The translations under genes were made by a program, and so were the position numbers. A stretch of 64,000 nt of DNA from a virus: IMG/VR virus record IMGVR_UViG_3300017925_000001, positions 1 through 64,000 of that record; one strand, written 5' to 3'. Shown piece by piece: positions 12,927-61,608 of the stretch. Below the pieces are notes generated by a model. The model was not told the origin of the DNA. It saw only the letters and a list, made by a program, of their open reading frames with translations, and did no database searches. Numbering within the stretch: the first letter of the stretch is position 1; every line of letters begins with the position of its first letter.

Positions 12927-13148
12927 TAACTTGTTGATTTATATAGACGGTAGTCTAAGTTGTTGATAATAAAGAAACTGAGTTTTGAATTTATAAGTCC
13001 TTTGTTTTCTTTATCGTTTTCCCCAGTTGTTCGTAAGTTATTGATTCTTATATTTCTTCTGTATATCCCTAGTTTGCCCTTTGCCTACAGATCTAGTATA
13101 GTCTTTTTTTTTACTTATGTCAACATAATTCGTAAGTTGTTGAAAATT
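12927..13148. repeat. AT-rich control region with four TAAGTTGTTGAT-like repeats
   Basis: Plus-strand copies: TAACTTGTTGATTT (12927), AAGTTGTTGATAATAA (12957, identical to the minus strand at 2266-2281), TAAGTTATTGATTC (13034) and TAAGTTGTTGAAAA (13133). The region is strongly AT-rich, gene-free, and lies between divergent operons next to the polymerase operon. It could be an origin with iterons or a repressor operator array. Confidence 0.55.
13095..13123 (-). promoter_or_regulatory. Sigma70-type promoter for the leftward replication operon
   Basis: On the minus strand TTGACA (13123-13118), a 17-bp spacer and TATACT (13100-13095). It points at the gene ending the replication operon start (12916), leaving a leader of about 170 nt that crosses the AT-rich repeats. 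Confidence 0.7.
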
Positions 13149-13179
13149 GGATGCTAGGAAATTTTTACACACTTTTCCC

Positions 13180-13209
13180 TTGACAAGTGGTCTACCTCCA
13201 TGATATAAT
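13180..13209 (+). promoter_or_regulatory. Consensus sigma70 promoter, rightward
   Basis: TTGACA (13180-13185), 18-bp spacer, TATAAT (13204-13209), with AAATTTTTACACAC upstream as at the 3320 promoter. The predicted start near 13216 gives a leader that contains the pseudoknot at 13230-13268. Confidence 0.85.
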
Positions 13210-13229
13210 TATATTAGATCGAAATTAGT

Positions 13230-13271
13230 GGGTAGGTGCCTCATACACCTGCCCACACCCTTATGAGGAGG
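13230..13271 (+). promoter_or_regulatory. Pseudoknot leader element, copy 1 (no P1 hairpin)
   Basis: Hairpin GGGTAGGTG/CACCTGCCC (13230-13238 with 13246-13254). Its loop CCTCATA (13239-13245) is fully complementary to TATGAGG (13262-13268), which runs into the Shine-Dalgarno GAGGAGG of the gene at 13276. The first hairpin seen in other copies is absent here. Confidence 0.75.
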
Positions 13272-13275
13272 GTTT

Positions 13276-13602
13276 ATGGAAAAACTACACGAAGAACAGC
13301 GAGCAATGAAAAAGCGCTGGCAGCTCACCAAAACTGAAAGAGTTTGGAATGCACAGCATTCTATGAAGACATACTTCATTCAAGGTGCTTCTACTGGGTT
13401 GATAAAGATAGGCAAGACCGCAGGATCAGTTAAAAAGCGCTGTGACGACTTGCAGGTAGGCAGTCCTGATAACCTTCGCGTGCTGAAAAGTGTGAAGAGA
13501 GACATTGAGAGGGGTCTTCATAAGAGTTTTGCATACCTCAGGACACACGGAGAGTGGTTTCGTCCTGCACCAGAACTTCTGAGATTTATAAGCAAGTTGT
13601 AG
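13276..13602 (+). CDS. T5orf172-like GIY-YIG superfamily nuclease
   Basis: 108 residues; the N-terminal 30 are basic and helical. The rest, with KTYFIQGASTGLIKIGKTAG, then KRCDDLQVGSPDNLRVL and a final EWFRPAPELLRFI, matches the T5orf172/MUG113 branch of the GIY-YIG fold: the Y...G-x-IKIG core, the Q/L strand, an E in RDIERGLHKSF and the terminal EWF. A DNA endonuclease role is likely. It is the only gene between the divergent promoter and the structured region, and its translation start is under pseudoknot control. Confidence 0.75.
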   Translation: MEKLHEEQRAMKKRWQLTKTERVWNAQHSMKTYFIQGASTGLIKIGKTAGSVKKRCDDLQVGSPDNLRVLKSVKRDIERGLHKSFAYLRTHGEWFRPAPELLRFISKL

Positions 13603-17795: not shown

Positions 17796-17870
17796 CTCGA
17801 AGCTTAGCGGCTTCGGGCTAGCTCGGGAGGTGCCTCAATCACCTCCTTTGAGCGACCTATTGAGGAGGAA
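17796..17870 (+). promoter_or_regulatory. Pseudoknot leader element, copy 2
   Basis: P1 CTCGAAG/CTTCGGG (17796-17802 with 17811-17817) with loop CTTAGCGG; outer helix GCTC/GAGC; P2 GGAGGTG/CACCTCC (17826-17832 with 17840-17846). Loop CCTCAAT (17833-17839) pairs perfectly with ATTGAGG (17859-17865), immediately before the GAGGAGGAAG ribosome-binding site of the gene at 17874. Confidence 0.85.
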
Positions 17871-17873
17871 GAA

Positions 17874-18575
17874 ATGTTTTATACATATCTGTGGTTACGA
17901 GAAGATGGTACCCCGTATTACGTTGGAAAAGGTTCTGGGCGTAGAGCATTTATAAACCATAGAAAACGTCGGGTGAGGATGCCCCTCGATAAAGAACGTA
18001 TTATCATTCAATATTTTGAGAATGAAACTGATGCCTTTGAAGCTGAGAAATTTCTTATATCATTTTTTGGAAGAGAAGATTTAGGTTTAGGATGTCTTCT
18101 TAATATGACAGACGGAGGAGATGGCCAATCTGGGTTGGTTCATAAAGAATCTTCCAAAGAAAAGATCAGACAGGCCCAAAAAGGTCAAAAGAGATCTGTA
18201 GAAAGAGTTAAAAAGACAGCAGACGCCTTGCGAGGAAGAAAAGGCAGGATGCTTTCCGAAGAAGAAAAGCAATACCTGTCTGATCTTTTTAAGGGTAAGC
18301 CTTGGTCTGAATCTAGAAGAAAAACTCAAGAAGAAAAACCTATCCGTATGGCTACTTGTCACCCCGATAGGAAGCACGCAGCTAACGGCCTGTGCAAAGA
18401 ATGCAACTACAGGGAATGGTCAATAAGAGTAGGCAGAAGACCTGGAACGGGAAAACTTAAAGGCTTTATTCCAACGTGTCACCCGGATAGGAAAGGACAT
18501 GCTAAAGGTTTATGCAAAGCCTGCTATGAAAGGGAAAGATTAGAAAAGAAAAGGAGAGCTCAGGATGCCCTATGA
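17874..18575 (+). CDS. GIY-YIG endonuclease with C-terminal zinc fingers
   Basis: 233 residues. Residues 1-80: MFYTYLWLREDGTPYYVGKG is the GIY-YIG core (Y...YYVGKG), then GRRAF and NETDAFEAEKFLISFFGRED with the catalytic-site glutamate. A middle NUMOD-like region (SGLVHKESSKEKIRQAQKG) is followed by two finger motifs CHPDRKHAANGLCKEC and CHPDRKGHAKGLCKAC. A homing endonuclease is likely. It is a free-standing gene between terminase and the next gene, which it overlaps by 11 nt. Confidence 0.85.
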   Translation: MFYTYLWLREDGTPYYVGKGSGRRAFINHRKRRVRMPLDKERIIIQYFENETDAFEAEKFLISFFGREDLGLGCLLNMTDGGDGQSGLVHKESSKEKIRQAQKGQKRSVERVKKTADALRGRKGRMLSEEEKQYLSDLFKGKPWSESRRKTQEEKPIRMATCHPDRKHAANGLCKECNYREWSIRVGRRPGTGKLKGFIPTCHPDRKGHAKGLCKACYERERLEKKRRAQDAL

Positions 18576-23289: not shown

Positions 23290-23360
23290 CTCAGGACTTA
23301 TAAACCTGAGCTAGAGTAGGGAGGTGCGCGAACATCTCCCTTCTCGCCTTTTCGCGGAGG
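23290..23360 (+). promoter_or_regulatory. Pseudoknot leader element, copy 3
   Basis: P1 CTCAGG/CCTGAG (23290-23295 with 23305-23310). P2 GGGAGGTG/CATCTCCC (23319-23326 with 23333-23340). Loop CGCGAA (23327-23332) is complementary to TTCGCG (23351-23356), next to GGAGG before the ATG at 23366. Linker GCTAGAGT and CTCGCC match other copies. Confidence 0.85.
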
Positions 23361-23365
23361 AATCA

Positions 23366-23974
23366 ATGATTGTTTATTTGATAACAAACGAAGTGAATGG
23401 AAAACAGTATATAGGTCAGACCGTTCGCAGTTTGCAAGTACGTTGGAAAAAGCACTTGTCTGCTGTGGTTTTGGGCAGTGAGTATTATTTTCACAAAGCC
23501 ATAAGAAAATATGGTGAAGAAAACTTTTCTTTGTTAGTACTCCACATTTGTGAAACCAAAGAAGAGATGGACTTTACCGAAGTGTTCTACATTTCTTTGT
23601 TGGGCACAAAAGCTCCTAAAGGATACAACTCTACCGAGGGTGGAGAAGGAACTGTAGGGCATAAACATACTGAAGAGTCCATTCAGAAAATGAGAAGTTC
23701 TCATAGTGGTCATAGAACCACTGAAGAACACAAAGAAAAGTTACGAAAAGCTTCCGAAGGAGTTCCGAAGTCAAAGGAGCATTGTCGCAGCATTTCTGAA
23801 GGAAGAAAAGGTATAAAATTTTCTTCTGAGCACCGAAAGAATATAAGTTTAGGACACATCAGAAATATTTGCCATCGTGGTCACAGTAGGATTCCTGCTA
23901 ATCTCAACAGAGATGGATCATGTAAACAATGCAAAAGGATTACAGAGCTTAAGAGATTGGGGAGGAGCCTTTGA
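23366..23974 (+). CDS. GIY-YIG homing-type endonuclease with zinc finger
   Basis: 202 residues from the ATG at 23366 (strong GCGGAGG); an earlier in-frame ATG is inside the RNA element and is rejected. MIVYLITNEVNGKQYIGQTV gives the GIY-YIG core, then YFHKAIRKYGEENF and the E in EMDFTEVFYI. Repeated TEEHKEKLRKASEG-type NUMOD3-like segments follow, and the end carries CHRGHSRIPANLNRDGSCKQC, the same finger type as the 3358 protein. It ends inside the start of the next gene. Confidence 0.88.
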   Translation: MIVYLITNEVNGKQYIGQTVRSLQVRWKKHLSAVVLGSEYYFHKAIRKYGEENFSLLVLHICETKEEMDFTEVFYISLLGTKAPKGYNSTEGGEGTVGHKHTEESIQKMRSSHSGHRTTEEHKEKLRKASEGVPKSKEHCRSISEGRKGIKFSSEHRKNISLGHIRNICHRGHSRIPANLNRDGSCKQCKRITELKRLGRSL

Positions 23975-26852: not shown

Positions 26853-27207
26853 ATGCCTCTTTTAGAAGCCGCTGTTGAAGCGGTTGAGTTAGACGCCTTC
26901 GCTAAGGAAATACCCGATCTTGTCTTTCATGGCACGACCGCGTATAGCCTTTTTAAGGCTGAAGCTACCTCTATTCCCGTTAGCAATCAGTCGAATGCTG
27001 GCGGAACGGTTCGTGCATCCTTTAGGGTGCCTTTCCGAGTGCAGTCTGGTGCGGCAATTTCACAGGGAACTGGTAACGCGGATAGTATGGGTCGCGGAAC
27101 TGGATCTCAGTGGGCTTCGTTCGCTCTAGCTCCTGTGTATTTGTTTAACGTTTGCGAAATCTCGTGGTTAGCTCAGGCTTCCACGGACAGCAAACAGAAG
27201 GGTCTTT
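26853..27207 (+). CDS. Major capsid protein, exon 1
   Basis: Encodes the N-terminal arm: MPLLEAAVEAVELDAFAKEI then LFKAEATSIPVSNQSNAGG and VCEISWLAQASTDSKQKG. The frame runs on only into intron sequence (stop at 27230). Joined to exons 2 and 3, the total is 1470 nt, a 489-residue protein of normal capsid size, located right after scaffold and decoration genes. The 3' end of the exon is uncertain by a few bases (27204-27208); 27207 keeps phase with exon 2 at 28030. Confidence 0.7.
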
Positions 27208-28029
27208 TTGCCGTAGAGTCAACGCTTTAGCGGCTGCTTTAGACTTTAAAGAAAACAACACTTGACTATATCGGTGGAACCCTGCTATCCTGAAAATAGG
27301 AGGCAGACAATACCGAGGGAAGATAGGAATGACAAAACAGTCGAAGTTTTCGTATTTAGCAGGTTTCATGGATGGTGAGGGCAGCTTCTCCATCGTCAAA
27401 ACCTTCTCTGTTCAAAGAAAACGGGACGGAAGTAAGCAGAAATACGTAACCTACAAATGTATGGTTTCCGTAACCAACACCAACAAAGAGGTGATGGATT
27501 GGATAGCCAAAACTTTTGGTGGTAAGGTTCTCACAGGCAGCAACGAGAATCGGAACCCAAAGTACAAAACTAGGTATTCATGGTTCAGGACGAGCCATGA
27601 GGACATTGAAAAGTTCACGTTAGGAATTCTGCCTTACCTCATTGTGAAAAGGAAACAGGCTTTGGTTGCTTTAGAGTTTTGTAAGACATACTTTACAGGG
27701 CGAATTGGTAGCCAAGAACTGAGTTCCGAAGTGACTGCAAAGAGAGATGAACTGAGACGCGAGATGATGCGCCTCAATGGCATCTTTTTACCAGACGCTT
27801 TACCTAAACCCGTAGAGACTACACGTCAGGCACCTCAAAGTTTAGATATAGACCATTGCCCCAAATGCAAGGAATTTTTGCACGATGAAATGGGTCATAT
27901 GTGTCCCTAAATATAAGGTGATGATATAGTCCGACCTTCTACAGAGATGTAGAGAGGGTGGCAGAAATGTCCATCCCTGAACGTCATCACTTGCAATTAA
28001 GTAATGACGTTTTGTAACAATAAGTAAAG
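27208..28029 (+). ncRNA. Group I intron 1 in the capsid gene (with LAGLIDADG gene)
   Basis: The 5' region can pair AGGGTCT of the exon with AGACTTT at 27241 as P1. A P3-P5-like segment with GGTGGAACC and CAATACCGAG lies at 27273-27321, and the 3' core TGATGATATAGTCCGACC is at 27916-27936, a typical P7 and J8/7 region, then a P9 hairpin TCTAC/GTAGA. The nuclease gene fills a peripheral loop. Splice points are inferred from reading-frame continuity. Confidence 0.75.
27329..27910 (+). CDS. Intron-encoded LAGLIDADG homing endonuclease
   Basis: 193 residues. YLAGFMDGEGSF near the N-terminus is the single LAGLIDADG motif, so the enzyme should act as a homodimer. LPYLIVKRKQALVALEFCKT is the usual following helix. 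The C-terminal HCPKCKEFLHDEMGHMCP adds a zinc knuckle, again a finger-type extension. It lies inside group I intron 1 and ends just before the catalytic core's 3' half. Confidence 0.9.
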   Translation: MTKQSKFSYLAGFMDGEGSFSIVKTFSVQRKRDGSKQKYVTYKCMVSVTNTNKEVMDWIAKTFGGKVLTGSNENRNPKYKTRYSWFRTSHEDIEKFTLGILPYLIVKRKQALVALEFCKTYFTGRIGSQELSSEVTAKRDELRREMMRLNGIFLPDALPKPVETTRQAPQSLDIDHCPKCKEFLHDEMGHMCP

Positions 28030-28986
28030 CCCAGGAAATGAAGAATTCTCTGGATGCCGCAATGCAAGGTATTGAGGGCTTGATCAACTCTGACGGTTCT
28101 GGCATGATCGACCAGATCCCGGTGGGAGCCAACGTCTCCAGCGGTTCAGGAGTCGGTGCGCAGACCTCTTTCATCACCCCGATGAACGTGGCTGTCGCGT
28201 TCTCCGACCAACAGGTTGTTCAGTTCTACACCACAGCCGGTGTCAACCGTGGTGGAACCGCAACGATTTCCTATGTTGACGGCCCCACGAACACCCTGTG
28301 GTTCAGCACCGCTCTGCCCGCTGGTGTCGCAGCCACGGACTACGTTGTGGTCGCTGGTGCAACATACGGTACGGGCGCATCCATCCTGGGTATCAAAGCT
28401 TGGGATGTGAACTCAAACAGCGGAACCATCGCTGGTTTGAACCGCGCATCGTATCCGGGTCGCTTGTCCACTCCGACCATCAACTTGGCCGGTGCGGCAA
28501 TCACCCCTGGCATCGCGCAGCGCGCTGAAGTCCTCTTGGGACGTGCGCTCGGCCCTGATGCGGATTCCATCAAAAGTGGAATCTGGTACGGTCCCCCTGA
28601 GCAGGCTTTCGCTCAGTCGAACCTGATGTACAACGTTCAGATTGCGAACGCGCAAGAAATCCACGGGGACAAGACCCTGGATATGGCGAAGAAATCCTTC
28701 GCTGACACGTTTGGTGGACGCAAGTACCACAAATCGTGGACCGCAATCAACAACCGCATGGACCTGTTGGTTCTTGACAACTGGTACATCGGGGAGCTGT
28801 CTCCGCTGGAGCTGTACGACTTCGGTGGTGGCAACGTTGTGGCACCTGTGCCCGACATCAGCTCTACGAACGGGACCGCGAGTTACCTTACCTCGCACAT
28901 GTTCGCTTACAATACGTGCTTCAATTTGGCGAATGCTGCACCGCGTGCAGGATTGTACATCCAGAACGCCGCTGTTAGCTCTATCT
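28030..28986 (+). CDS. Major capsid protein, exon 2
   Basis: Encodes the bulk of the capsid protein. The frame enters from intron sequence (AQEMKNSLDAAMQGIEGLIN) and gives the HK97-fold spine helix, a beta-rich P/A region (TATISYVDGPTNTLWFSTAL, VVVAGATYGTG), the E/N-rich LDLLVLDNWYIGELSPLELY-like segment, and GLYIQNAAVSSI before the next intron. The in-frame stop at 28988 lies in intron 2, so translation of the unspliced message would truncate the protein. Confidence 0.8.
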
Positions 28987-29251
28987 AGTTGATTCTAAAG
29001 CAATTAACTGATAGAAAAGCAGCTTTGCTCAGCAATGAGCATTGAGAATCTAGAGAATTCAGGGAAACACTCATAAGAGTCAATCCTGAGCCGAGCCCCG
29101 CAAGGGGAAGGTGCAACGACTATCCCGCAAGGGAGTAGGGCGCAAGTGCGCTCGAAGCACTAGACACCCGTCAGGGTGATGATATAGTCTGAGCTTGCAG
29201 GCGACTGCAAGAGACCAAACGGAAACGGTTTGATCGCAACATAACTGACCG
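28987..29251 (+). ncRNA. Group I intron 2 in the capsid gene (ORF-less)
   Basis: P1 is an extended hairpin of TCTAT-C-TAGTTGATT with AATTAACTGATAGA giving a U-G pair at the splice site after 28986. GAATTCAGGGAAAC and CAATCCTGAGCCGAGCC form P3-P4. AACGACTATCCCGCAAGGGA and GATATAGTCTGAG make P7. The 3' splice at 29251 (last base G) restores the frame. At about 265 nt it has no gene. Confidence 0.85.
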
Positions 29252-29409
29252 CAAGTGTAATAAATTTAGGGCTTTCTGCAGGAAGTCCTTGGGTTGGAGT
29301 CCTGCTGCAGCGGGATTCCTTCTCAGAATTAGTTTGTATTCCAGCGACGGTTGGGATACCGCGTGGGAGCAGCCTAGAACTGCTCCTGCGCAATCTTTCT
29401 AGGAGATAA
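29252..29409 (+). CDS. Major capsid protein, exon 3
   Basis: The C-terminal 52 residues: VINLGLSAGSPWVGVLLQRD, then SFSELVCIPATVGIPRGSSL and ELLLRNLSRR, stop at 29407-29409. The frame has no start codon of its own, but it continues exon 2 precisely when the 265-nt intron is removed. Its last codons contain the Shine-Dalgarno AGGAGA of the next nuclease gene. Confidence 0.75.
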
Positions 29410-29411
29410 TT

Positions 29412-30068
29412 ATGACAGAAAAGATTTGCACTAGATGTTGTGTTTCAAAACTTTTGAATGAAGAGAACTTCAAGAAGAGAAAAGGTTATGCTGACGGCTT
29501 CCACACATGGTGTACCGAGTGTTTGAAGACTTACAATGCATGGTGGGAAAAGAAGAATAGAGATGCAGACCCAGAGTACTACCGTGCTCGGGAATTTGCA
29601 CGAGAGATGAAGAAATACGGAACTACTGTGGAGTGGTACCGAGACCGGCTCATAGAACAGCTTGGTTTATGCGCAATCTGCGGACATCTTAGTCATCATC
29701 ATGGCACGATTCAGAGACTTCAGGTCGATCATGCTCATTCTTGTTGTGATTTGCACACCAAAAGCTGTGGCAAGTGCCTTCGCGGTCTACTTTGTGCCGA
29801 TTGTAACATTAGGCTAGCTCCGCTTGAGCTTCTGTTGACCGAGTTCCCTTCCGAAAGAGTTGATCAAGCCGAGGTTTTCCTTCGCAATTCCGTTGTAAAA
29901 GACTCATGGACCTATCGAGCGTTGAAATATCTCAAGAGGTACGTGCAAGATCATAATAAACCTTGGAACCTGACGCAGGATGCCTTAGCAACTCTAGAAT
30001 TAGCAAAAATTAAACCAAGAGAAGGCGTGATAATCACAGGCGTGACTCAGGAGACTCAGAATGTATGA
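29412..30068 (+). CDS. HNH/endonuclease VII-like nuclease
   Basis: 218 residues. N-terminal zinc site CTRCC...CTEC and a helix precede the endonuclease VII-type core GLCAICGHLSHHH, LQVDHAHSCCDLH, CGKCLRGLLCADCNIRLAP, with the D-H-x-H catalytic stretch and C-x2-C pairs. It starts three bases after the capsid stop, so it is translated from the capsid message. It may home into or mobilise the neighbouring introns. Confidence 0.85.
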   Translation: MTEKICTRCCVSKLLNEENFKKRKGYADGFHTWCTECLKTYNAWWEKKNRDADPEYYRAREFAREMKKYGTTVEWYRDRLIEQLGLCAICGHLSHHHGTIQRLQVDHAHSCCDLHTKSCGKCLRGLLCADCNIRLAPLELLLTEFPSERVDQAEVFLRNSVVKDSWTYRALKYLKRYVQDHNKPWNLTQDALATLELAKIKPREGVIITGVTQETQNV

Positions 30069-33313: not shown

Positions 33314-33390
33314 CCCCTAGACTAATTACCTAGGGGCAGCCGTGGGCTCCTTGCTTACCCAAGGGGCCTGCGCAATCTCGGTAAGGAGGA
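33314..33390 (+). promoter_or_regulatory. Pseudoknot leader element, copy 4 (divergent sequence)
   Basis: P1 CCCCTAG/CTAGGGG (33314-33320 with 33330-33336). P2 GGCTCCTTG/CAAGGGGCC (33345-33353 with 33360-33368). Loop CTTACC (33354-33359) complements GGTAAG (33380-33385), which leads into GGAGG before the ATG at 33395. Sequence differs from the other copies, but the architecture is the same. Confidence 0.75.
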
Positions 33391-33394
33391 AGTC

Positions 33395-34009
33395 ATGGGA
33401 AGAGCAGGAAAATACACAGGTCTCATTGGAAAGAGGTTTGGTCTTCTAGAAGTCAGAGTCTTGTCACGTATTGTGCATACAACTCGGTTTGGGAAGCCAA
33501 TAGGATTTACACGATACTACCTTTGTAAATGTGATTGTGGTGGCTCGATAATTGTTAGAGAAACACATCTAACCGAGAAAAGAAAAGCCAACATACAAAA
33601 AAGTTGTGGATGCTTGGTGAAGGAGCTGCACAAGAGTGCTTCGTGGCACACAAAGTCTCGCAAAGAAGGCACAGCTTTTCGTAGATGCTTGGATCAATAC
33701 AAGGCGAATGCAAGGAATCGTGGATTATCTTGGGAGTTGACCGATGATCAGTTCAGAGAGATCACTACATCTCCGTGTCATTATACCGGAGAGGCTCCAT
33801 CCACGGTGAAAAAGTCTAGGTGCGAAGAGTATGTGCATAATGGCATAGATCGCATAGACAATAATAAAGGTTACATAACAGAAAACTGTGTTCCTTGTTG
33901 TGCAATTATCAACCAGATGAAGGCGGATCTCTCATTGAAGAGATTCTTGGAGCTATGCAAAAAAGTTTCAGAGAGGACACAATGTGAGCAGCCCAACAAT
34001 CAACAGTAA
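33395..34009 (+). CDS. HNH homing-type endonuclease with zinc knuckles
   Basis: 204 residues: GRAGKYTGLIGKRFGLLEVR as an AP2-/NUMOD-like N-terminus, CKCDCGGS and CGCLVKE forming a zinc site, then a helical stretch and GIDRIDNNKGYITENCVPCC which is the HNH-N (H omitted variant) core with asparagines and metal-site residues, and INQMKADLS. Typical of self-mobilising phage HNH enzymes. It overlaps the next gene by 26 nt. Confidence 0.85.
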   Translation: MGRAGKYTGLIGKRFGLLEVRVLSRIVHTTRFGKPIGFTRYYLCKCDCGGSIIVRETHLTEKRKANIQKSCGCLVKELHKSASWHTKSRKEGTAFRRCLDQYKANARNRGLSWELTDDQFREITTSPCHYTGEAPSTVKKSRCEEYVHNGIDRIDNNKGYITENCVPCCAIINQMKADLSLKRFLELCKKVSERTQCEQPNNQQ

Positions 34010-51663: not shown

Positions 51664-51730
51664 CCAAAGCTTAGCGGCTTTGGTGTAGAGTCGGGAGGTG
51701 CCATTCCACCTCCCCGCTCGACCTGAATGG
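51664..51730 (+). promoter_or_regulatory. Pseudoknot leader element, copy 5 (before a hydrolase-like gene)
   Basis: P1 CCAAAG/CTTTGG (51664-51669 with 51678-51683), loop CTTAGCGG. P2 GGGAGGTG/CACCTCCC (51693-51700 with 51707-51714). Loop CCATTC (51701-51706) complements GAATGG (51725-51730), which runs into GGAGG. The next gene at 51738 is not a nuclease, but the one after it is. Confidence 0.85.
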
Positions 51731-51737
51731 AGGAACT

Positions 51738-52733
51738 ATGATTAACAGAAATTTTGTGCGTTTAGTTTTGGCTGAAGGTGGAACAATCAAACCGTTGATG
51801 ATTTCTTCTGTTGACTCTGGTGGGCTTGGGCTCTGTAACCCGTCAGTGTTTGTTGATCACGGTGAAATTTGGTTGATACTCAGAAATGTCAGTTACACGA
51901 TATACCACTGCGAAAATGAGAAGAGATTCAATAGTCGGTATGGTCCGCTGAGTTATCTCAATCCAGAGCATGACCAGCATTTGCGGACTACGAATTTTCT
52001 TTGTAAGTTGACACCAAGTCTCGAAATAGAACGATACTGGAAAATCGACACTAGCCATCTCGACAAAGAACCGCTCTGGGAGTTTACGGGTTTGGAAGAC
52101 GCTCGTCTCGTACGTTGGGATGGGCATCTGTACGGTATCGGAGTTCGGCGTGATACAACAACCAACGGTCAGGGACGGATGGAGTTTTCGGAACTCGAAT
52201 TGGTCAACGACACTGTAAAGGAAATCGGGCGATATAGAATTGAACATCCTACGGCTCCTGAATGGTATTGTGAAAAGAATTGGATGCCAGTGTTGGACAT
52301 GCCTTACCATTTCATCCAGTGGACAAATCCTGCGGTATTGGTTAAAGCTAACCTTACGACTTTGAAGTCCTATCGGGCGATTGAGGTCAATGAGTCTGGC
52401 AAGATTGAAGGCATGCCATTTCTCCGTGGGGGTTCCCAAGTAATCCCTTGGCATAACTATTACATCTGTATTGTCCACGACTGTGACCTGACCAAGAATC
52501 TCATAGGACAAAAAGATGCTACTTACATGCATCGGTTTGTGGTCTATGACCGGAATTGGAATATAGTTAGGATTGGCGACCAGTTCTCTTTCATGGATGG
52601 GGAAATCGAATTCTGTTGTGGACTCGCAGAATATGAGAAGGACTTCTTGATGACGTTCGGTTTTCAAGATAATAGTGCTTGGATTTTGAAAATTCCATCA
52701 TCTATAATTCCCAAATTGATCGGAGTAGCATGA
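51738..52733 (+). CDS. GH43/GH130-like beta-propeller protein
   Basis: 331 residues. FTGLEDARLVRWDGHLYGIG with acidic residues in a repeating blade, VFVDHGEIWLILRNVSYTIY, NWMPVLDMPYHFIQWTNPAV and INPAV-like blade ends suggest a five-bladed propeller of the GH130 or GH43 kind that cleaves or phosphorolyses glycans. It is translated from the pseudoknot leader and overlaps the downstream GIY-YIG gene by 4 nt. Confidence 0.6.
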   Translation: MINRNFVRLVLAEGGTIKPLMISSVDSGGLGLCNPSVFVDHGEIWLILRNVSYTIYHCENEKRFNSRYGPLSYLNPEHDQHLRTTNFLCKLTPSLEIERYWKIDTSHLDKEPLWEFTGLEDARLVRWDGHLYGIGVRRDTTTNGQGRMEFSELELVNDTVKEIGRYRIEHPTAPEWYCEKNWMPVLDMPYHFIQWTNPAVLVKANLTTLKSYRAIEVNESGKIEGMPFLRGGSQVIPWHNYYICIVHDCDLTKNLIGQKDATYMHRFVVYDRNWNIVRIGDQFSFMDGEIEFCCGLAEYEKDFLMTFGFQDNSAWILKIPSSIIPKLIGVA

Positions 52734-53467
52734 CCTTCTATACTTACACGTATCTTCGTGCAGACGGAACTCCGTATTATATCGGTAAAGGGAAAGACTA
52801 TCGTGCGTTCAAGAATGGGGGTCGCCCATGCAAGAAACCGATTTACCATTCTCGTATTCTAATCCAATATTGGAAGTCTGAAGAAAAAGCGTTTGAAATG
52901 GAAGTCTGGTGGATCAATTTTTGGGGACGTAAGGATAACGGAACAGGTATTCTTAGAAATTTATCTGATGGAGGCGCAGGCAAGGCGGGATTTATACCTG
53001 ACCCTGAACAGGGGCGCAAACACAGCAAATTTCTGAAAGACAAATTTGCATCAGGAGAGATGGGACCTCCCGGCGCTCAGTCTATAGAGGCGAGAAAAAA
53101 ATTAAGTACATCGCTGAGGGCGGGACATGCCTCTGGGGAAATAGTTACTTACAACAAAGGAATCCATGCTACTGATGAGCAAAAGGCAAAATGGTGGACG
53201 CCAGAACGGAGAGCCGCTCAAGCCGAACGGTGTCGTAAAATGGCAATGGAAGTTATTTTTACTCCTGAGCGTAGAGCTGCTTTAGCCGCTGCCGCTGCTA
53301 AAAGATTTAAGGGAATTCCTCAATCCGAAGAACAGAAAACCCGAGCTAGAGAAGGTTGGAAAAAAGCTTGGACTCCAGAACGTAAAGCCGCTCGATCTGA
53401 GAGGGCAAAAGCGCAGGGATTTGGAACTATTATTCATCCATCAGTTCGGAGGAAAGATGTTTCCTGA
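52730..53467 (+). CDS. GIY-YIG endonuclease
   Basis: 245 residues from the ATG at 52730 (ATGA overlap with the hydrolase stop). FYTYTYLRADGTPYYIGKGK is the GIY-YIG core, then EEKAFEMEVWWINFWGRKDN and a C-terminal series of TPERRAAQAER segments of NUMOD3-like type. It differs from the 17874 and 60940 enzymes in lacking the C-terminal zinc finger. It overlaps the next gene by 11 nt. Confidence 0.85.
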   Translation: MTFYTYTYLRADGTPYYIGKGKDYRAFKNGGRPCKKPIYHSRILIQYWKSEEKAFEMEVWWINFWGRKDNGTGILRNLSDGGAGKAGFIPDPEQGRKHSKFLKDKFASGEMGPPGAQSIEARKKLSTSLRAGHASGEIVTYNKGIHATDEQKAKWWTPERRAAQAERCRKMAMEVIFTPERRAALAAAAAKRFKGIPQSEEQKTRAREGWKKAWTPERKAARSERAKAQGFGTIIHPSVRRKDVS

Positions 53468-54909: not shown

Positions 54910-55443
54910 ATGAAGAACGTATTGAAAGCGGTTTTATTCGCTGCTATGTCTATCTCTTTATTTGGGACATGCCTTGCACAAGAAGGCAGATTGCAAGTAA
55001 AGACTCAGACGCACACTTTAGCACTAAAAGAAAAAATCAAGGTTGATCCACCTACCAAGTATGTTTTGTCTGGCACCTATTTGGTATCCGGCAACGGCAA
55101 TGTAACGTACATAGAACCTTTGTCTGTTACGTATCTTGACGACCCCTTAACAGTAACGTGCGCGAGCACATGTTCAATCCTAGGCAGCTTAACAGTGCAG
55201 ACCAGTGGAAGTATTTCCAGTAATAACCTGGCTGTATGTATGCTTGTGGATGGAGAACCTGTTCCAAACGGTTGTCAATGGTCTACTGATACTCCAGGTG
55301 ATGGTACTTTTGTTGAAAGTTCTGTTTCTTCTTGGGTAGTAGATTTGCCTGCTGGGGAACACACAGTACAGACGGCCATAGCTTCTGAGTATGGCTGTGA
55401 TTATGAATACTGGGGCTTTCAATATTCTGTGTACAAGCCGTAG
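54910..55443 (+). CDS. Secreted or periplasmic protein, 177 aa
   Basis: MKNVLKAVLFAAMSISLFGT then CLAQ gives a signal peptide with a possible lipobox-like LFGTC. The mature part is beta-rich with several cysteines (CASTCSILG, NGCQWST). A cell-surface or virion-exposed product is possible. A degenerate pseudoknot element and a split tail gene follow. Confidence 0.6.
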   Translation: MKNVLKAVLFAAMSISLFGTCLAQEGRLQVKTQTHTLALKEKIKVDPPTKYVLSGTYLVSGNGNVTYIEPLSVTYLDDPLTVTCASTCSILGSLTVQTSGSISSNNLAVCMLVDGEPVPNGCQWSTDTPGDGTFVESSVSSWVVDLPAGEHTVQTAIASEYGCDYEYWGFQYSVYKP

Positions 55444-55452
55444 GGAAAGCAT

Positions 55453-55504
55453 CTCAGGTCCTCGAAACCTGGGCTAGAGCTGGAAGGAGCCTAACTCTCC
55501 TTCC
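55453..55504 (+). promoter_or_regulatory. Degenerate pseudoknot leader element, copy 6
   Basis: P1 CTCAGGT/ACCTGGG (55453-55459 with 55467-55473), linker GGGCTAGAGC with GAGC/GCTC, and P2 GGAAGGA/TCCTTCC (55482-55488 with 55498-55504) are intact. Loop CCTAACT pairs with the downstream ATTTAAG at only five of seven positions and there is no ATG at the expected spot. It looks like a relic of a lost nuclease unit. Confidence 0.6.
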
Positions 55505-55541
55505 TTGCTCGATCTGATTTAAGAGCTGAATATCTAGAAAA

Positions 55542-55608
55542 GTGGAAGGAAGGGTAGCGATATCGGACATAACCTTAAACAACTGGGTAAGTAAGTTGCC
55601 CCCTCAGT
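55542..55608 (+). CDS. Large tail protein, exon 1
   Basis: GTG at 55542 is the only plausible start; it opens VEGRVAISDITLNNWVSKLP then PQ and the first base of the next codon, after which the intron begins. The joined frame gives PQSSLDCFGGLIT, a good match to the start of this tail protein family. The ribosome-binding site is weak, so the true start could differ. Confidence 0.55.
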
Positions 55609-55834
55609 CAGTAATGATTGAGCGCAGAACCAAGAGAATTCGGTGAAACGCCCTCTGGGCCAATACCGAGCCGAGCCGCTAATGCGGAAGGTGTAACGAC
55701 TATCCCGCAAGGGAGTAGGGAACAGTGTTCCCGAAGTACTTGGGGTCCTGAAAAGGATCATGATATAGTCTGGTCTTACTGGCAACAGTAAGAGTTCGAA
55801 TGGAAACGATTCGAGCGTAACATATAAACGACAG
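55609..55834 (+). ncRNA. Group I intron 3 in the large tail gene (ORF-less)
   Basis: The core is nearly the same as intron 2: GAATTCGGTGAAAC and CAATACCGAGCCGAGCC, AACGACTATCCCGCAAGGGA, GATATAGTCTGGTC. P1 can form between CTCAGTCA and TGATTGAG. Removing about 226 nt joins exon 1 and 2 in frame. No gene lies within it. Confidence 0.8.
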
Positions 55835-60861: not shown

Positions 60862-60936
60862 CTCAAGGCTTAGCGGCCTTGGGCTAGAGTTGGGAAGTGC
60901 TATGAACACTTCCCTTCTCGCCTTTTCATAGGAGGA
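60862..60936 (+). promoter_or_regulatory. Pseudoknot leader element, copy 7
   Basis: P1 CTCAAGG/CCTTGGG (60862-60868 with 60877-60883), loop CTTAGCGG. P2 GGGAAGTG/CACTTCCC (60892-60899 with 60907-60914). Loop CTATGAA (60900-60906) complements TTCATAG (60925-60931), directly at GGAGG before the ATG at 60940. Confidence 0.88.
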
Positions 60937-60939
60937 ATT

Positions 60940-61608
60940 ATGCCAACAGGAATTTATGAAAGAAAACCAACAATACCTAGAATGTCTAACTGTCACCCTG
61001 ATAGAAAACATTTTGGAAAAGGAATGTGCAACCAGTGTTATCATAAGGCTTACCACGTACAGCATAAGCACTCGTTTGTAGATGAGTTTGGTATTTCAAT
61101 ACCAGAGGGCTTCTATACCTACCTCTGGTTCAGGGCAGATAGCACCCCATATTATGTGGGAAAAGGCAACGGAAAAAGAGCCTACGTAAATCATGGACAT
61201 TCGTTTCACAGACCTGTGAGTAGGGCAAGGATTTTTGTGCAATATTGGGAGTCTGAGGAAAAGGCGCTTGAGATTGAGGCTTGGTACATTGCTTTTTATG
61301 GGCGCATAGACAAAGGCACAGGTTGTCTCAGAAACCTAACAGATGGAGGAGAAAATCCTCCAGGCAATAAAGGTGTAAAGTTTTCAGAAGAGCACAAACG
61401 AAAAATAAGTGAAGCACAGAAAGGCCCTAAGGGACATTGGTTTGGAACAAAGAGGCCTTTTGTTTCTAGAGGTAAAGGTCGAGTACAAAACCCTGAATGG
61501 ATTGCTAAAAGGGTAGCCAGTACAAAAGCAACTCGTGAGTGTAAGAAGAAAGGAGACCCTACGGTATGCAAGGCAGAACTAGCGCGCTCGATGGCGGGCA
61601 AGAGCTAA
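60940..61608 (+). CDS. GIY-YIG endonuclease with N-terminal zinc finger
   Basis: 222 residues. An N-terminal finger CHPDRKHFGKGMCNQC (same type as in the 17874 enzyme, but at the other end of the protein), then FYTYLWFRADSTPYYVGKGN, EEKALEIEAWYIAFYGR and a NUMOD3-like FSEEHKRKISEAQKG. It overlaps the next gene by 43 nt. Confidence 0.88.
   Translation: MPTGIYERKPTIPRMSNCHPDRKHFGKGMCNQCYHKAYHVQHKHSFVDEFGISIPEGFYTYLWFRADSTPYYVGKGNGKRAYVNHGHSFHRPVSRARIFVQYWESEEKALEIEAWYIAFYGRIDKGTGCLRNLTDGGENPPGNKGVKFSEEHKRKISEAQKGPKGHWFGTKRPFVSRGKGRVQNPEWIAKRVASTKATRECKKKGDPTVCKAELARSMAGKS

Follow-up and report, generated by a model that had tools for sequence, protein, structure and literature searches.

Introduction

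Homing nucleases have to be expressed sufficiently to spread without harming the phage that carries them. In T4-type phages their translation is limited by RNA structure that hides the Shine–Dalgarno sequence (SD; PMC2988022, PMC3014915). The leaders of I-TevI, I-TevII, I-TevIII, segB and Aeh1 mobE, which serve free-standing or intron-encoded nucleases, work in this way (PMC2988022, PMC3014915): a plain hairpin covers the SD, the nucleases sit in late operons, and a late promoter is placed so that late transcripts drop the 5′ arm of the hairpin. In Aeromonas phage 25, seg43 carries a very stable hairpin immediately upstream of the SD, described as not sequestering it. Pseudoknots are known from two further leaders. 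In repZ of the IncIα plasmid ColIb-P9, the strand just ahead of the SD base-pairs with the loop of a hairpin farther upstream; this helix competes with an SD-hiding stem and activates translation, and an antisense RNA and a leader peptide take part. The gene 32 pseudoknot of phages T4, T2 and RB69 is situated 67 nt ahead of the start codon, where it nucleates gp32 binding, and does not include the SD. Whereas the known RNA control of homing nucleases consists of single hairpins in T4-like phages, we describe here a compact module repeated throughout one lineage of uncultured phages, in which two covarying helices divide the SD between them.

Results

Nine intact leaders in one phage genome

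The window analysed is a 64,000-nt part of an IMG/VR virus record of 109,724 nt, whose + strand carries a block of phage structural genes. An earlier note on this DNA had named six leaders, at 13230, 17796, 23290, 33314, 51664 and 60862, each with a hairpin loop complementary to a strand ahead of the following gene. We scanned the 109.7-kb genome with a mechanical descriptor, namely a hairpin with a 6–8-nt loop followed downstream by the full reverse complement of that loop. There were ten matches on the + strand and one on the − strand, against one to three per strand in shuffled sequences; nine of the ten + strand matches were followed by an SD and the ATG of a nuclease-type gene or its operon, a context missing from the shuffle matches. 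The scan, together with reading of the sequence, recovered all six named copies with the loop/strand pairs that the note had given, and added three, one in the window (29373) and two beyond it (genome positions 69721 and 77239). The genome thus holds nine intact leaders, plus one decayed copy at 55476.

From 5′ to 3′ the leader consists of a hairpin (H1), CUA, the 5′ strands of an outer helix (P0) and a stem (S1), the S1 loop, the 3′ strands of S1 and P0, 0–2 nt, an anti-SD (CCU and variants), the strand complementary to the S1 loop (forming helix S2), the 3′ half of the SD, 4–6 nt and the start codon. H1 is a 6–8-bp hairpin, often with a UUAGCG loop, a few nucleotides past the upstream stop codon. 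A few H1 loop types recur (UUAGCG, GUUGCU, CUUGAUCA, AUUAAUUAC, ACUUAUAAA and CCUCGAA), and leaders of unrelated nucleases have them in common. P0 occurs as GAG/CUC, GCUC/GAGC or GCGC/GCGC, commonly with a 2×2 internal loop, and the swap of GAGC/GCTC for GCTC/GAGC that had been reported for the outer helix is confirmed by the sequence. S1 comprises 8 bp, or about 13 bp with P0, while other copies have one continuous stem of 11–13 bp; the S1 loop is 6–7 nt long. The spacing from SD to ATG is 4–6 nt in 49 of 56 copies.

Some copies lack H1 and have instead a TTGACA-17/18-TATAAT-like promoter just upstream; by eye, such boxes precede copies in L011, L015, L017 and L102. Copy 1 in the window (13228..13273, +; covariance-model match 13227-13277) is of this type. 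By consensus match, its only strong + strand promoter is a sigma-70-type TTGACA-18-TATAAT (13180..13209; 12/12) just upstream of the whole leader, not inside the structure; an 11/12 match on the − strand at 13123-13095 points away from it. A transcription terminator was ruled out, there being no T-run after S1 and none found at 13050-13350. S1 (13228-13238/13246-13256) encloses the loop CCTCATA (13239-13245), ACCCT (13257-13261) and AGGGT (13269-13273) form the anti-SD helix H3 on either side of the S2 strand TATGAGG (13262-13268), and a MUG113 (GIY-YIG-like) nuclease ORF follows at 13276..13602 (+; Pfam PF13455, 2.4e-10).

Copy 2 lies between the terminase gene and a GIY-YIG/NUMOD3 homing-nuclease ORF (17874..18575, +), whose NUMOD3 match is just below cutoff and whose relatives are Seg-like; the ORF is an insert before the next gene, judging by the empty site in relatives. 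H1 (17796..17817, +; UUAGCG loop at 17804-17809) starts 4 nt past the terminase stop codon. The core (17821..17868, +), found by descriptor and covariance model, contains P0 (GCTC 17821-17824/GAGC 17850-17853), S1 (17825-17832/17840-17847), the loop CCTCAAT (17833-17839), the anti-SD CCT (17856-17858), the S2 strand ATTGAGG (17859-17865) and the SD half AGG (17866-17868). Three further + strand copies were likewise found by both methods and carry H1 at their 5′ ends. Copy 3 (23290..23360, H1 from 23290; S1 23319-23326/23333-23340, loop CGCGAA 23327-23332, anti-SD CCTT 23347-23350, S2 strand TTCGCG 23351-23356, GAGG 23357-23360) precedes a GIY-YIG homing-nuclease ORF (23366..23974, +; Pfam PF01541, 1.9e-11). 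Copy 6 (60862..60935, H1 from 60862; S1 60892-60899/60907-60914, loop CTATGAA 60900-60906, anti-SD CCTT 60921-60924, S2 strand TTCATAG 60925-60931, GAGG 60932-60935) precedes a NUMOD3 homing-nuclease ORF (60940..61608, +; Pfam PF07460, 1.6e-06; PHROG 314, homing endonuclease). Copy 5 (51664..51733, H1 51664-51684; S1 51693-51700/51707-51714, loop CCATTC 51701-51706, anti-SD CCT 51722-51724, S2 strand GAATGG 51725-51730, AGG 51731-51733) stands directly before a non-nuclease ORF of 331 aa (51738..52733, +) that has no Pfam, PHROG or PDB match. This ORF overlaps a GIY-YIG-like ORF (start 52730) by ATGA within a unit spanning 51738-53467, and is perhaps a cargo gene of the homing-nuclease unit.

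Copy 4 (33314..33389, +; descriptor), with H1 at 33314-33336, S1 at 33342-33353/33360-33371, the loop CTTACC (33354-33359), the S2 strand GGTAAG (33380-33385) and GAGG (33386-33389), precedes a putative nuclease ORF (33395..34009, +) that has no Pfam match of its own and is so named for its resemblance to HNH ORFs. The additional copy at 29373 (29361..29407, +; descriptor and covariance model) lacks H1 and comprises S1 (29361-29372/29380-29391), the loop CCTAGAA (29373-29379), the anti-SD ATCT (29393-29396), the S2 strand TTCTAGG (29397-29403) and AGAT (29404-29407). It stands between a group I intron core (28995-29211; Rfam RF00028) and the adjoining endonuclease-VII (HNH-type) ORF (29412..30068, +; Pfam PF02945, 1.1e-10), an order in which the leader may also serve a possibly intron-linked nuclease. 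The decayed leader (55476..55530, +; remnant given from 55452), matched by a covariance model built without S2 pairing, keeps H1, P0 and S1 and has lost the S2 strand, the SD and the nuclease. It lies downstream of an ORF stop at 55443 and upstream of a group I intron core (55579-55792), and probably marks where an intron nuclease has been lost. The claim that most copies begin just past a stop codon held for those at 17796, 23290, 51664 and 60862; it failed for 13230, which has its own promoter, and for 29373 and 33314.

The loop/strand helix covaries

In 22 copies of equal length, S2 is 98.7% paired without any G-U pair and six of its seven pairs change on both sides; S1/P0 is 92.6% and H3 90.9% paired. 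None of 500 shuffles reaches the observed covariation of the whole structure, and sliding the partner strand destroys the pairing. These rows had been chosen for S2 complementarity, so the fair test is a set of loci collected by DNA patterns blind to S2. There, all 14 distinct 5-mer pairs are complementary (permutation mean 1.0, maximum 6), bearing out the proposal that loop and strand change together. Five distinct elements found only by a covariance model ignorant of S2 also carry S2, and H1 covaries as well. On this comparative evidence, S2, S1/P0, H1 and H3 are well supported as RNA helices. The copies are alike in S1 and might be recombination patches, but compensatory changes in four helices refute the notion of chance or a DNA-level repeat devoid of RNA function, to which we assign almost no weight. 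One element (L103; G006:17643-17701, − strand) keeps four S2 pairs and has its SD displaced downstream, the next ORF having its own SD; it appears to be a decayed or altered copy.

An anti-SD helix takes the other half of the SD

The S2 strand had been placed directly before the SD. Instead it overlaps the SD, and what remains of the SD pairs with the leader's own anti-SD through H3, which joins the last 3–5 linker bases before the S2 strand to the bases right behind it. H3 has at least 3 bp in 54 of 57 elements, and its total complementarity exceeds that of all 2000 between-element permutations (0/2000). Both sides vary together, as in ACCCU/AGGGU, GAUCU/AGAUC, GUCC/GGAC and CCUU/GAGG, and further in ACUCU/AGAGU, CGCCU/AGGCG and ACCU/AGGU; about half of the copies (29 of 57) have just CCU/AGG as H3. 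Bases of the SD fall in both S2 and H3 in 50 of 56 copies, most commonly GG in S2 and AGG in H3. S2 occupies one to four SD bases in most copies, covering GGAG in the ATGGAG/GGACA subgroup, and its formation often leaves AGGA free. For several of the window copies, ordinary folding also gives a small hairpin on the SD or beside it.

Two folds that should exclude each other

S1 and H3 stand back to back with a 0–2-nt linker, so that their loops point apart. Intramolecular kissing of the two loops was rejected, since the collinear complex would require a span of 48–62 Å with 0–2 nt of linker. Also rejected was a static H-type pseudoknot with the 13-bp S1/P0 intact: in an A-form model about 44 Å must be bridged, for which the 5-nt L3 is too short. 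Because five nucleotides cannot span 13 bp, P0 must open for a simple pseudoknot to form. S2 and P0/H3 should therefore exclude each other in one molecule, to the extent that an ideal A-form model describes the leader, and if they cannot coexist, a bistable lock describes it better than one static pseudoknot. Rough mean energies (S2 stacks −11.3, S1 −20.6 and H3 −1.9 kcal/mol) make both states plausible. We tentatively propose, as a possibility we do not yet hold to be probable, a new RNA family that divides the ribosome-binding site between a pseudoknot and an anti-SD hairpin, two helices that covary separately and exclude each other, the bistable lock serving as the lineage's standard, signal-responsive module before unrelated nucleases.

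The same geometry bears on whether S2 might form between two RNA molecules, the S1 loop of one kissing the H3 loop of the other. Both partners are 6–7-nt hairpin loops with strict Watson–Crick pairing, and the A-form model sterically excludes kissing in cis. Nothing suggests a high RNA concentration, however, and orthogonality of the loops within a genome, although all are different, was not significant (0 of 91 pairs identical, 1.25 expected). We consider intermolecular pairing very improbable. The stability of S1, and the predicted start of promoter-type transcripts about 12 nt before it, would suit a leader acting on mRNA stability or processing, through an exonuclease block or protected 5′ end, with the SD overlap incidental. 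We give this little credence, as the SD itself takes part in the H3 covariation and there is almost no variation in the distance to the start codon.

A leader family in one phage lineage

Relatives were collected from terminase homologues, four DNA-pattern scans of IMG/VR, model matches in whole contigs and the genome's own copies. The strict descriptor gave 57 distinct intact elements, to which the covariance model adds more, and the loop/strand covariation among relatives, which the earlier note had proposed to look for in phage genomes and metagenomes, is overwhelming. The leader stands before almost every homing-nuclease gene in this group of uncultured phages. Its contigs share one lineage's structural proteins (45–90% identity), with the exception of L059, which could not be placed; the terminase is less than 30% identical to those of cultured phages. 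Three more distant terminase relatives (L034, L036 and L037) lack the leader. Matches in bacterial contigs (L062 and L063) and in one phage (L094) were dismissed as chance, all being without S2.

Rfam 15 gave no leader match at gathering score in the window or six relative loci, and none to the copy at 17796 at E values up to 5. BLAST found no leader DNA match in cultured phage records, the descriptor none upstream of ten related nucleases, and the model none in 11 cultured phages (T4 and ten with related nucleases) in a search run without a positive control. Searches of open-access papers yielded no pseudoknot family for homing nucleases. A previously undescribed RNA family before homing-nuclease genes, as had been suggested, is thus borne out by its absence from Rfam and its covarying loop/strand helix.

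Leaders and nucleases are probably gained together, and nucleases can be exchanged under a leader

The downstream ORFs are unrelated nuclease types (endonuclease VII, HNH, GIY-YIG, MUG113 and NUMOD3), with some small ORFs that have no Pfam match and are labelled nucleases by resemblance. In whole-genome model searches, leader copies precede nucleases or sit in a nuclease operon, and the leader is kept before unrelated families, both in copies transcribed from a promoter and in those whose transcript comes from the gene upstream. Nucleases without a leader are a − strand NUMOD4 ORF (L005:16541-17047) and the LAGLIDADG ORF at 27329-27910. The latter sits between ORFs 26853-27230 and 28038-28988, which may be one split structural gene; Rfam reported no intron in 26853-28988.

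The use of one leader before unrelated nucleases would allow for an external common factor, such as a phage or host RNA-binding protein that recognizes the H1 loop UUAGCG, CUA and GGGAGGUG to repress or activate several nucleases as a group. Conservation is higher in the S1 and H1 loop sequences than in S2, but promoter-type copies lack H1 and S1 varies freely with compensation, and we regard such a protein operator as improbable.

Leader and nuclease follow the terminase stop codon in the window and in L025, L026 and L032, while L014 (terminase 93% identical), L027 and L028 pass straight from terminase to the next gene; occupied and empty sites together indicate that leader and nuclease were gained jointly, directly behind the stop codon. 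In the pairs L041/L043 and L040/L106 the leaders are identical and the ORFs diverge right after the SD into unrelated nucleases, so nucleases are exchangeable under an existing leader. The breakpoint just after the SD is a natural recombination joint. The suggestion that RNA element and nuclease move as a unit is consequently upheld for insertion, but a leader can persist through a change of nuclease, which suggests that regulation, like the nuclease, passes between selfish genes as a unit.

Discussion

We favour, as the probable reading, a leader that acts as a cis-acting 5′ throttle on homing-nuclease translation within a strongly transcribed structural-gene operon, for two reasons: the analogy to T4-type systems, and the division of the SD into halves, each covered by one helix. 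The covariation shows that S2 joins the S1 loop to a strand that takes in the SD's 5′ half, and that H3 joins the anti-SD to its 3′ half. Since each helix hides part of the SD, the ribosome would meet an incomplete SD in either state; full access would need a transient open state, keeping nuclease synthesis low, and this synthesis may be tuned or timed as the leader switches between P0/H3 and the S2 pseudoknot. Leader and nuclease would insert jointly behind the stop codons of conserved genes, with nucleases later swapped under the existing leader. The one copy without a nuclease has lost S2 and the SD, which supports the throttle. Against it, H3 is a weak lock, alone worth about −1.9 kcal/mol and reduced to CCU/AGG in half of the copies.

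The main rival is a reading of opposite sign, in which the pseudoknot is the ON state as in repZ, which needs a pseudoknot upstream of its SD in order to be translated (PMC8383071): S2 would melt or prevent H3 and activate translation, perhaps once upstream translation or a factor opens P0. The competition of S2 and H3 for adjacent bases without coexistence in cis, the free AGGA of the S2 state in many copies and rough energies of the same order for both states all speak for it, but S2 itself takes SD bases in most copies, including GGAG in the ATGGAG subgroup, and H3 is very weak in half of them. As to which state is the more open, these tendencies point in opposite directions; we think the ON-state reading unlikely, and that hiding of the ribosome start signal by the leader fold probably keeps these selfish nuclease genes quiet. 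The dozens of natural leader variants are a ready set of compensatory mutants for asking how competing helices set SD access, and the leader is a tool for finding hidden homing nucleases.

Among the closest known systems are the T4-type leaders. Here too a homing nuclease lies downstream (in one copy behind the putative cargo ORF) and the SD is paired within the leader, the nucleases being inserted in a structural-gene operon as their T4-type counterparts sit in late operons. Unlike those plain hairpins, the present leaders combine a hairpin with a loop/strand helix and an anti-SD helix, and one repeated family spans unrelated nucleases; the predicted promoters, where they occur, stand ahead of the complete leader. 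With repZ they share the pairing of a hairpin loop with a strand at the SD and a competition between this helix and an SD-hiding stem, which here follows from geometry. The gene 32 leader is likewise a phage mRNA pseudoknot, and translational control is what we infer here; in the present family, however, the SD is part of the structure, and the downstream genes encode nucleases. The seg43 hairpin resembles S1 in its stability and its position immediately upstream of a homing-nuclease SD, but a loop/strand helix is not reported there. By its sequence, then, this appears to be a new structured-RNA family that would work like the known SD-sequestering leaders through an architecture that is different, more elaborate and repeated.
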